In this document: piece after piece, positions 38,679 through 40,927 of the stretch
How positions within the stretch are numbered: the stretch's first letter is position 1
Layout of the letters: each line of letters starts with the position of its first letter
Assembly: GCF_023806625.1 (NCBI RefSeq)
Contig: NZ_JAMTDX010000007.1
Span: forward strand, 1 to 48,461
Reading direction: 5' to 3'
From: Accumulibacter sp.
GTDB lineage: Bacteria > Pseudomonadota > Gammaproteobacteria > Burkholderiales > Rhodocyclaceae
DNA: 48,461 nt
Program-made: the position numbers and the translations under genes
Notes under the pieces: model-generated
Databases searched by the model: none
What the model saw: only the letters and a program-made list of their open reading frames with translations
What the model was told of the DNA's origin: nothing

Positions 38679-39848
38679 TCAGTCGAGACCTGCCTCGGCG
38701 CGCAGGATCGCGGCCTTGTCGAGAGCTTCCCAGGTGAACTCGGGCTCGTCGCGCCCGAAGTGGCCGTAAGCGGCAGTCTTGCGGTAGATCGGCCGAAGCA
38801 GATTGAGCGCCTGGATGATTCCCTTCGGGCGCAGGTCGAAGTTCCTGCCGACGATTTCGATGATCTTCTCGTCGCTGACTCTGCCGGTTCCGAAGGTATT
38901 GACCATCAGCGAGACCGGACGAGCCACGCCGATCGCGTAGGCGACCTGGAGCTCGCAGCGCTCGGCCAGGCCCGCAGCGACGATGTTCTTGGCCACATGG
39001 CGGGCGGCATACGCCGCTGAACGGTCGACCTTCGACGGGTCCTTGCCCGAGAACGCTCCTCCTCCGTGTCTGGCCGCGCCGCCGTAGGTGTCGACGATGA
39101 TCTTTCGCCCGGTAAGCCCACAGTCGCCGTGCGGCCCGCCGACGACGAAACGCCCTGTCGGATTGATCAGGTAATGCGGGTTGGCGCTCAGCAGCTCGCG
39201 CGGGATGACCGGCTTGATCACTTCCTCGATCACCGCCTCGGAGATCTGGGCATGGGAGACATCCGGGTCGTGCTGCGTCGACACGACGATCGTGTCGATC
39301 GATACCGGTCGGCCATCGACGTAGCGCACCGTGATCTGACTCTTCGCGTCGGGCCTCAGCCATGGCAGGCGCCCGTCGCGGCGCACTTCGGCCTGCCGCT
39401 GCATGACCCGGTGCGCGTAGTGGATCGGCAGCGGCATCAGCATCGCCGTTTCATTGCACGCATAGCCGAACATCAGGCCCTGATCGCCCGCGCCCTGGTC
39501 GAGGTCGAGGCCTTGCCCCTCGTTGACGCCTTGGGCGATGTCCGGCGACTGCCGGTTGATCGCGGTCAGGATCGCGCAACTCTTGTAGTCGAAACCGATT
39601 TCCGAGTCGTCGTAACCGATCCGGCGGATCGCGTCCTGGGCCACCTCACGGTAGTTGACATGTGCCCTGGTGGTGATTTCGCCCGAGATCACCACCAGGC
39701 CGGTGGACACCAGCGTCTCGCAGGCGACGCGGGCCAGCGGGTCGTCGGCCAGGATCGCGTCGAGAACGGAATCGGATATCTGGTCGGCGACCTTGTCCGG
39801 GTGTCCTTCCGAAACCGACTCCGAAGTGAAGAGGTACTCTTTGCTCAC
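38679..39848 (-). CDS. metK: S-adenosylmethionine synthetase MetK
   Basis: Makes S-adenosylmethionine from ATP and methionine. 389 residues from the GTG at 39848, giving the conserved N terminus [18 protein letters not shown]; a TTG six codons upstream is also in frame but lies inside the ribosome-site region. Motifs include the HPDK phosphate loop, the [12 protein letters not shown] active-site loop ([17 protein letters not shown]) and the [17 protein letters not shown]-loop-like motif. The ribosome site is GGAG, about 10 bases upstream. Its leader carries a SAM-II-like riboswitch, an intrinsic terminator and an inverted repeat over the ribosome site, so product feedback is likely. Confidence 0.97.
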
Positions 39849-39852
39849 GTTG

Positions 39853-39919
39853 CGTCTGCTCCACAAATCAAAAAAACCCCGGAAAGCCAGCGTTGCCGGC
39901 TCCGGGGTCTGAGCAGACG
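39853..39919 (-). promoter_or_regulatory. 9-nt inverted repeat masking the metK ribosome site
   Basis: CGTCTGCTC (39853-39861) and GAGCAGACG (39911-39919) are perfectly complementary and flank the leader terminator. On the minus-strand RNA the upstream copy can pair with the segment containing part of the GGAG ribosome site of metK (39862-39859), placing the terminator hairpin as the tip of a longer stem. Translation of read-through transcripts could therefore also be blocked. The pairing is certain; the regulatory effect is inferred. Confidence 0.6.
39870..39908 (-). terminator. intrinsic terminator (attenuator) in the metK leader
   Basis: On the minus strand ACCCCGGA (39908-39901) pairs perfectly with TCCGGGGT (39883-39876), with further GC pairs inside the loop, and runs into seven Ts (39876-39870). 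It lies 22 bp before the metK start. The nearest upstream gene is divergent, so the only transcripts this element can stop are those initiated in the metK leader; it is therefore an attenuator rather than the end of another operon. Confidence 0.8.
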
Positions 39920-39922
39920 ACG

Positions 39923-39992
39923 CTTTAGCAGTATTTGTCAGCCGCTCAAGCGGCGCTGCCCGCCCTGCAAGTTGTCCTGATTAACTCGGCGG
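39923..39992 (-). ncRNA. SAM-II-like riboswitch aptamer upstream of metK
   Basis: The minus-strand RNA from 39992 has the H-type pseudoknot layout of SAM-II riboswitches. Stem P1 is CCGCC (39992-39988) with GGCGG (39964-39960). The first loop ends in CUUGCAG, a strongly conserved SAM-II segment. Its GCAG (39968-39965) pairs with CUGC (39931-39928) in the 3' segment UGACAAAUACUGCUAAAG (39940-39923), which closely matches the class consensus ending GCUAAA. Between them an extra hairpin, GCCGC-UUGA-GCGGC (39954-39941), is inserted, an extended form. The start of transcription predicted from the TATAAT falls at the first base of P1. SAM-V or SAM/SAH variants are alternatives. The call rests on recognised consensus, not on a covariance search. 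Confidence 0.72.
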
Positions 39993-39999
39993 ATGGATA

Positions 40000-40005
40000 A
40001 TTATA
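40000..40005 (-). promoter_or_regulatory. -10 element of the metK leader promoter
   Basis: An exact TATAAT on the minus strand. The predicted start, about 7 bp downstream near 39993, coincides with the 5' edge of the riboswitch P1 stem and gives a leader of about 145 nt. No consensus -35 is evident (TGCCCC at 17-bp spacing). Confidence 0.55.
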
Positions 40006-40078
40006 TCTTTTCTCCCCCCGTCGGGGCATCCCGATCGTCGAGCTCCGTGCTTCAGATCCTTCGTCCGGGGGTGATCCG

Positions 40079-40927
40079 GTGATCACCCTGTTTCGTCTGC
40101 TGAGTCGTCTGCCGCTGTCCTGGCTGCAGGCGTTGGGTGCGCTGCTCGGCTGGCTGACCTGGCTCGCTTCGCCGACGTATCGCCGCCACATGCGCGAAAA
40201 CATGGTTCTCGCTCTCGGCGAGGCAGAGGCGCGGCGGCTGCGGCCGGCGGCGATCGCCGAGGCCGGCAAGGCAGCGTTGGAGCTGACCCGGATCTGGCTT
40301 CGTCCGCTGGCGGAAGCCGCTGCTCGCGTGGTGCAGGTCTCGGGCTGGGAACTCGTCGAGCAGGCGACCCGCGAAGGGCGGGGAATCCTCTACCTGACGC
40401 CGCATTTGGGGTGCTTCGAGATCACCGCGCAATACCTGTCGACCCGTGCGCCAATCACGGTTCTCTACCGCCCGCCGCGGCAGCCCTGGCTGCAGGCGAT
40501 GATCGAGGCCGGTCGGGCCCGCGACCAGCTGTTCCTTGCGGCAGCCGACCTCTCCGGAGTGCGCAGCCTGATCAAGGCGCTCAGGCGCGGTGAGGCGGTG
40601 GGCATGCTCCCCGATCAGGCGCCGAAGGCCGGAGAAGGCCGCTGGCTCGACTTCTTCGGCAGGCCTGCGTATACGATGACGCTCGCTGCGCGGCTGACCG
40701 AAACGCGCGCGACGGTGATCATGGTCTGGGCCGAGCGTCTGCCGCGCGGGCGCGGCTATCACTTCCGGCTGCAGAAGCCGACCCGTCCGATCGAGGGCAG
40801 CATCGAGCAGCGCGCGCAGCAGATCAACACCGAGATCGAGCATCTGATCCGCCAGTGTCCGGCGCAGTATCTGTGGGGCTACAACCGGTACAAGGGTCGG
40901 AAGACACCGGCGCCTCAGAGCTCGTGA
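40079..40927 (+). CDS. lipid A biosynthesis acyltransferase, LpxL/HtrB family
   Basis: Inner-membrane acyltransferase that adds a secondary acyl chain to Kdo-lipid A. 282 residues with a GTG start at 40079 and a GGGGG ribosome site. An N-terminal hydrophobic anchor (LSWLQALGALLGWLTWLA) precedes the catalytic HX4E motif in TPHLGCFE. The later GMLPDQAPKAGEG segment and the C-terminal QYLWGYNRYKGRK tail are typical. Whether it acts before or after the second late acyltransferase (LpxL or LpxM role) cannot be told. It is divergent from metK. Confidence 0.88.
   Translation: MITLFRLLSRLPLSWLQALGALLGWLTWLASPTYRRHMRENMVLALGEAEARRLRPAAIAEAGKAALELTRIWLRPLAEAAARVVQVSGWELVEQATREGRGILYLTPHLGCFEITAQYLSTRAPITVLYRPPRQPWLQAMIEAGRARDQLFLAAADLSGVRSLIKALRRGEAVGMLPDQAPKAGEGRWLDFFGRPAYTMTLAARLTETRATVIMVWAERLPRGRGYHFRLQKPTRPIEGSIEQRAQQINTEIEHLIRQCPAQYLWGYNRYKGRKTPAPQSS

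Follow-up and report, generated by a model that had tools for sequence, protein, structure and literature searches.

Architecture of the metK leader

The window, a stretch of 48,461 nucleotides from a genome of Candidatus Accumulibacter, carries metK, the gene for S-adenosylmethionine (SAM) synthetase, on its minus strand, with the GTG at 39848 as the likely start (placed by reading). The leader upstream of it contains the following features.

38679..39848, minus strand: metK, S-adenosylmethionine synthetase (NCBIfam TIGR01034, 613 bits; Pfam)
40000..40005, minus strand: −10 box TATAAT of the presumed metK promoter (sequence; same place in same-genus leaders)
39919..39993, minus strand: SAM-II-like aptamer, composed of P1, L1, P3-like insert, A-rich joint and P2 (R3 match, 61.7 bits)
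39988..39992, minus strand: P1 5′ strand, CCGCC (covariation)
39983..39987, minus strand: third strand, GAGUU (GAGUUAA in the leader reading; aligned to the SAM-II positions in the available text of PMC3764141 and PMC6061858)
39974..39976, minus strand: P2a 5′ strand, GAC (pairs with GUC at 39919-39921; nearly invariant)
39965..39971, minus strand: loop segment CUUGCAG (sequence)
39965..39970, minus strand: UUGCAG, equivalents of U20-U21-G22-C23 plus two covarying bases; P2b 5′ strand (covariation)
39960..39964, minus strand: P1 3′ strand, GGCGG (covariation)
39941..39954, minus strand: extra hairpin GCCGC-UUGA-GCGGC, 3′ of P1 like P3 of SAM-V (sequence, fold, insert statistics, within-genus variation)
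39933..39936, minus strand: A-rich joint AAAU, 5′ of the P2 3′ strand (insert statistics)
39924..39931, minus strand: P2b 3′ strand CUGC, then UAAA, equivalents of G42-C43-U44-A45-A46-A47 (sequence, covariation)
39911..39918, minus strand: anti-Shine-Dalgarno segment GUCUGCUC (pairs with 39854-39861; cross-species test)
39870..39908, minus strand: terminator-like hairpin ACCCCGGA-GCCGGC-AAC-GCUGGC-UU-UCCGGGGU (folds; hairpin plus U-run criterion)
39854..39862, minus strand: Shine-Dalgarno sequence GGAG (39862-39859), overlapping GAGCAGAC, the partner of the anti-Shine-Dalgarno segment (sequence, cross-species test)

A previous sequence-only reading had described P1 (CCGCC/GGCGG), the segment CUUGCAG, the pairing GCAG/CUGC, the trailing UAAAG and an inserted 5-bp hairpin with a UUGA loop; all of these lie on the minus strand where it had placed them, the hairpin at 39954-39941. 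P2, which it had taken to be GCAG/CUGC, does contain this pairing but is longer, as the 3-bp P2a (GAC/GUC) adds to it, and CUGC-UAAAGC-GUC spans 39931-39919. P1 may have a sixth pair, between U39993 and G39959 (U-G). The earlier description was also incomplete in that it did not include the G at the site of SAM-II U10, the Shine-Dalgarno (SD)-pairing helix, the terminator-like hairpin and the spread among betaproteobacteria. The TATAAT on which it had based a transcription start at the first base of P1 is present at 40005-40000, 7 nt before P1, and a start at P1 or 1 nt before it is plausible; the promoter scan reported nothing on the minus strand.

Conservation of the pseudoknot

Covariance model R3 was built from 37 leaders, none from a record known as Accumulibacter or Rhodocyclaceae (some MAG records carry broad names only, and no name is listed for L275). 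In the 4.09-Mb genome its match covers 39919-39993 (E 4.4e-13), the alignment being in register and the 18-nt stretch that holds the hairpin being treated as an insert. Model R1 scores 66.8 bits on the window, a non-independent value because R1 was trained with the window element.

Covariation was assessed in alignment A2, which comprises 76 distinct sequences from 152 parsed elements (63 of the 76 from a pattern scan of named genomes) and omits elements with one base between UUGC and P1 (12 loci, e.g., L114, L190, L199 and L204), inserts longer than 34 nt, L189 and L306, and further copies of a P1/P2/L1 combination already represented. Of the cells, 97.6% are paired under the P1/P2 model. Compensatory changes, whose presence the sequence-only reading had suggested as a check, were found in both helices: both sides had changed in 129 cells, compared with 41.5 in shuffles and 2-28 when the partners were slid by 1-3 columns. 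The best covarying columns, P1 pair 2 (CG 35, UA 34, GC 5, AU 1) and the two outer P2b pairs, all lie outside the scan pattern. Little or no variation is seen in P2a and the inner P2b, partly by construction, and they are poorly informative on covariation; for P2a there is hardly any such evidence, its GAC being part of the search pattern. These data show that the H-type pseudoknot is conserved through compensatory change. In addition, none of 200 dinucleotide shuffles folds as well as the leader of the window (z −3.36, no pseudoknot allowed). That a pseudoknot laid out like SAM-II and bearing an additional 5-bp hairpin precedes metK is far beyond chance, and the earlier proposal of such an element at a betaproteobacterial metK is supported by the data.

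A short joint (≤14 nt) is found at the insert site in 82 of the 152 parsed elements and a longer insert (≥17 nt) in the other 70; in 137 of 152, AAA is present within the 6 nt at the 3′ end of the insert. Among 70 distinct inserts of at least 17 nt, 66 fold with at least 4 pairs (mean z −2.9 versus mononucleotide shuffles). The P3-type hairpin 3′ of P1 that characterizes SAM-V is seen at 39954-39941, but not in the 82 elements with a short joint, and because of these the hairpin is regarded as an appendix at the place of SAM-V P3 that is dispensable for the fold. In the metK elements L349 and L350 a hairpin lies in L1 instead, at a site that is free in the pseudoknot model, too; the hairpins which the added stretch can form differ between the two. 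L1 is likewise enlarged in the metK elements L434 and L455.

Distribution of the metK element

All 28 Candidatus Accumulibacter genomes (28/28) gave a match to R1. Family and order leaders were chosen via the MetK protein alone. All 11 genomes examined from other genera of the family carry the element at metK (8/8 plus 3/3, the latter being L377, L439 and L447), as do 29 of 106 genomes from the rest of the order (7/23 plus 22/83), the other 77 leaders being without it; these tallies omit G042, whose contig begins at metK, and G029, which has no metK match. One of the 29, L386 from order genome G380, is a near-canonical SAM-II before metK (R2 69.1 bits). The second of the two samples, 86 protein-chosen metK leaders of order genomes, thus yielded the element in 25 (3/3 plus 22/83). 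It is absent from the second metK copies of two family genomes (L141, L142). The leader analysis did not include 80 viral-contig loci with MetK relatives, among which two stray regex matches were set aside.

Genome-wide, R1 matched at E ≤0.01 in 212 of 300 order genomes, a count that includes SAM-II-like elements at other genes. Among 299 phylum genomes searched at E ≤1e-4, 37 gave a match (the own genome, 1 of the family, 21 of the order and 14 of the class), with no match beyond the class. The pattern scan of named genomes matched at least 120 contigs, 80 of which were listed; the genera among the matches listed include Massilia, Cupriavidus, Herbaspirillum, Bordetella, Thauera, Dechloromonas, Oxalobacter and others. 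Within these 80 listed loci metK lies directly downstream in 74; five of the remaining six have another gene there, and in one the contig ends 44 nt past the element. The words GTTAA, GACAACTTGC and GCTAAAGC belong to the scan pattern, and their constancy in that sample is by construction. The metK element is common to many betaproteobacteria.

SAM synthetase is a hub enzyme. According to the available text of Leyn 2014 (PMC4239095), SAM_alpha was found only in Rhizobiales and Rhodobacterales, and metK of beta-proteobacteria had no known regulator, attempts at finding new ones having failed. Barrick and Breaker 2007 (PMC2258182) mention, in the text available, SAM-II in beta-proteobacteria without giving a gene; SAM-II in betaproteobacteria is therefore not new in itself. 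A 26-genome survey (PMC8632094) does not mention metK in its available text, and searches of an open-access library showed, among the papers listed, no report of a SAM-II-like RNA at betaproteobacterial metK. We regard the metK element as real and widespread, and as a variant within the SAM-II riboswitch class that has probably not been described before. As a widespread riboswitch missed by the standard Rfam model, it would fill a gap in metK regulation, and it would exemplify the "extreme structural variants" that, in the view of a 2007 survey, might occupy empty niches (PMC2258182, available text).

Relation to SAM-II and other RNA elements

The Rfam scan for SAM families that the sequence-only reading had called for gave no match at threshold: Rfam 15 at gathering cut-offs returned 0 matches in the window, no SAM family matched at E ≤10 over 39780-40080, and RF00521 (SAM_alpha) showed no match at the metK site in a search of the window's genome (150 of 523 candidates scored). 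This negative result is due to divergence from the SAM_alpha model. Low scores of anti-hemB, sroD and similar families over the terminator-like hairpin were taken as chance. RF00521 aligned the insert-free relative L124 in register over positions 1-79 with 21.4 bits (E 0.18), the best score of 13 relatives against a gathering score of 36 bits.

Models of the two types were also searched against each other. Given 23 SAM-II sources, R1, the metK-type model, detects 17 at E ≤1 (10.8-42.1 bits), nine of them below E 0.01, and misses six. R2, made from 32 SAM-II sequences and no metK-type element, finds the metK leaders L124, L123, L114, L135, L140, L128 and L113 with E 3.9e-9 to 2.3e-5; four R2 alignments of metK leaders are, as printed, in register. 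On the 86 further leaders, R2 gave 12 matches at E ≤4e-5, all R1-positive. Two sites only were found by R2 in the window's genome, the metX element (a training sequence) and the metK leader (26.2 bits, E 0.006). At the leader, R2 takes the extra hairpin for P1, and this out-of-register alignment is no structural evidence. Forms intermediate between the two types combine GATTTAA with CAACTTGC. As the models of each type detect the other, the metK element is a relative of SAM-II, which shows their homology.

Shared with SAM-II are the H-type pseudoknot, a P1 of 5-6 bp, a third strand ending in UU, UUGC and GCUAAA in P2, and the methionine/SAM gene context. The metK element differs in having mostly G at position 10, GACAAC before UUGC (aligned SAM-II sequences mostly have CAG or CGG before CUUGC), optional hairpin inserts, a score under the Rfam cut-off, and usually two bases rather than one between UUGC and the P1 3′ strand, which adds one more P2b pair. 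It also sits at metK and has an SD-pairing segment, in contrast to SAM-II, for which the available text of PMC6061858 describes mostly transcriptional control. Because U10 and the family score fail, the element was not filed under RF00521; it very likely works like SAM-II.

SAM-V (Rfam RF01826) gave no match at E ≤10 in the window leader or at E ≤5 in the 13 relatives. It has the same pocket layout, an extra P3 hairpin (absent from SAM-II) and translational control (PMC6061858, as far as its text is available) in common with the metK element; unlike it, SAM-V has U where the metK element has G, and its Shine-Dalgarno sequence, according to the same partial text, is mostly inside P2a, whereas that of the metK leader (39862-39859) is 57 nt downstream of P2a. 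SAM-II long loops (RF01726) has the resemblance in its name, a SAM-II form with enlarged loops, but is listed for Bacteroidetes and marine samples (PMC2864571, available text), and its model matched neither the window leader nor the 13 relatives. The metXZ RNA of beta-proteobacteria, according to the accessible portion of Leyn 2014 (PMC4239095), is located in the leaders of metX/metZ and comprises a pseudoknot, an alternative pairing and a terminator. The metX element of the window's genome (L143) and the elements of relatives at metZ-like genes fit this text description, and they are set apart from the metK element by the other gene, by U10 in L143 and by a terminator right after the aptamer.

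That metX element (L143:1510-1565), the second SAM-II-like element of the genome, scores 19.5 bits with RF00521 (cut-off 36), so Rfam under-reports SAM-II there too. Two class-level genomes (G217 and G201) carry an RF00521-matching element directly before metK (L179, L180).

The ligand pocket and position 10

The metK leader is probably a divergent riboswitch of the SAM-II family which subjects SAM synthetase to feedback by its product. In SAM-II, U10-U12, U20-U21-G22-C23 and G42-C43-U44-A45-A46-A47 are completely conserved (PMC3764141, available text). For SAM-V, the accessible text of PMC6061858 describes a base pair between the adenine of SAM and the counterpart of U44, which also receives one hydrogen bond from the counterpart of U10; those of U11 and U21 face the sulfonium, and that of A47 holds the amino-acid end. 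Our own alignment to the published SAM-II positions assigns U39984/U39983 of the window to U11/U12 and G39985 to the U10 site. The bases that hold SAM in SAM-II are kept in the metK element, U10 excepted: U11, U12, U20, U21, G22, C23, G42, C43, U44, A45, A46 and A47 are all present in the window and in 40 of 40 family/order leaders, which were model- or regex-positive and not picked by the scan pattern, detection itself favoring pocket bases. The leader would be expected to bind SAM, and to prefer SAM over SAH.

G occupies position 10 in 28 of 28 same-genus leaders. Outside the genus, 34 of the 40 family/order leaders have G (14/15 plus 20/25) and six have U. The higher figure of 151 of 152 parsed elements is partly by construction, since 110 of the 152 come from the scan with that G in its pattern. 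G10 is the usual base at metK, yet it is not fixed.

Could this G signify that the SAM-II fold has taken on a changed ligand or affinity, that is, a different SAM range or a SAM-related compound? Its prevalence within and outside the genus, next to U in the metX element (L143) of the same genome, would agree with that, as would the location of position 10 beside the base that pairs with the ligand's adenine; moreover, a close variant of a SAM aptamer forms a class for another ligand (PMC10853860, available text). However, the six leaders with U10 mean that G is not required, and G10 also occurs in some SAM-II-like elements at other genes (L340, L344, L348). The metK element retains U11 and U21 at the sulfonium, U44 at the adenine and A47 at the amino-acid end, G could presumably also give the U10-type hydrogen bond to the U44 equivalent, and metK is the gene expected for SAM, all of which makes a change of ligand or affinity improbable.

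Somewhat less improbable, but still doubtful, is the idea of a betaproteobacterial metK subclass of SAM-II whose adenine-recognition layer is rebuilt by G10, so that its SAM set-point or ligand preference would differ from that of the metX element in the same cell, with the tandem in Chromobacterium relatives as a natural two-input or digital switch before a transporter-like gene. Among the 25 element-bearing leaders of the 86 protein-chosen ones, 20 have G10 and five U10, and this proportion lowers the odds of both the set-point reading and the change of ligand. The natural choice between G and U at position 10 within one family offers a clean test of the tolerance of the SAM-II pocket.

Expression platform and proposed mechanism

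GGAG lies within 18 nt of the start in 138 of 156 metK leaders; in the window, the stretch GGAGCAGAC with the Shine-Dalgarno sequence corresponds to 39862-39854 in the leader reading. The 18 nt 3′ of the aptamer were searched for pairing with the Shine-Dalgarno region, related leaders being counted at full weight. An anti-SD:SD helix of at least 7 bp was found in 61 of the 138 leaders (44%), compared with 17% when partners were swapped between loci and 8% after shuffling; in 49 of 138 the helix has 5 bp or fewer. Matched changes of both partners are seen across groups (GTCTGCTC/GAGCAGAC, GCAGGCTC/GAGCCTGC and CGCAAGC/GCTTGCG). The SD-pairing segment is common, not universal, and since this pairing is found in many species, SAM probably represses translation of metK.

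The P2 5′ strand (L1) can pair with the anti-SD segment by at least 5 pairs in 79% of the 156 leaders, versus 59% when swapped between different P2 sequences and 43% when shuffled, a modest signal that lends weak support to this pairing as the alternative ON fold. A fold specific to the nascent window transcript, in which the insert region is sequestered along with the P2 3′ strand and the anti-SD segment, was dropped, as the insert varies in relatives.

The terminator-like hairpin is GC-rich and is overlapped by a run of 7 U at 39876-39870; the terminator pattern scan reported none for the window leader. By our own hairpin plus U-run criterion, such a structure occurs in 19 of 29 Accumulibacter leaders and in just 16 of 127 others, and termination was rejected as a general mechanism on account of the latter. 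In energy folds of the window leader the hairpin forms in both states tried, and the folds thus give no sign that SAM controls it. In Accumulibacter, attenuation may act as a further layer. By eye, GGAGCCGGC-N-ACG at 39891-39903 (5′ arm and loop of the hairpin) seems more conserved within the genus than the 3′ arm, and to recur in other genera.

A mechanism can be proposed from this arrangement. At high SAM, the ligand would fix the third strand GAGUU in the groove of P2 and stabilize P2a/P2b, leaving the adjacent GUCUGCUC free to pair with GAGCAGAC and to hide the Shine-Dalgarno sequence. At low SAM, the P2 5′ strand (GCAGG) could pair with the GUCUGCUC segment instead, by which the Shine-Dalgarno sequence would be freed. 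The terminator-like hairpin in the same leader may add transcription attenuation in Accumulibacter.

The same parts could belong to a relic SAM-II fold that exerts translational or terminator control without sensing a small molecule, for example as a protein-binding or RNA-stability element, given that the terminator-like hairpin and the SD helix could act by themselves; such a relic, with its pocket bases retained in different families alongside coordinated changes in P1 and P2, would not be expected and is very unlikely. Chance resemblance inside an ordinary GC-rich metK leader, to which the silence of Rfam at this site might point, has a negligible probability in view of the genome-wide E of 4.4e-13 with a model not trained on the genus, the 28/28 genus genomes and the P1/P2 covariation. 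Product feedback through a SAM-II-type riboswitch is the reading that we prefer for the metK leader.

SAM-II-like elements at other genes

Genomes of class-level family f33, tentatively Pseudomonas-like, carry a SAM-II-like element whose inserts are long (L366-L370, L372-L374); none of them is among the 49 RF00521 matches listed. In L366 and L367 an ORF of ∼105-120 aa follows the element, and the trimmed L367 protein shows a weak match to Methyltransf_11 (E 0.09).

In Chromobacterium/Aquitalea/Vogesella-type genomes, an element of the metK type precedes an ORF of ∼100 aa beginning with MYDC (L339-L344, L216, L232, L236, L245, L253), for which no convincing Pfam or NCBIfam match was obtained with the two proteins scanned. 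By its look, the ORF that follows it in L216, L236, L245 and L339-L344 resembles a MATE transporter. Just upstream in L339-L344 lies another SAM-II-like element with a terminator-like hairpin, a tandem that recalls the SAM-II/SAM-V arrangement of Pelagibacter. Upstream of an ORF without assigned function, L376 has a SAM-II-like element with a terminator-like hairpin (269-326) and, 3′ of it, another SAM-II-like stretch.
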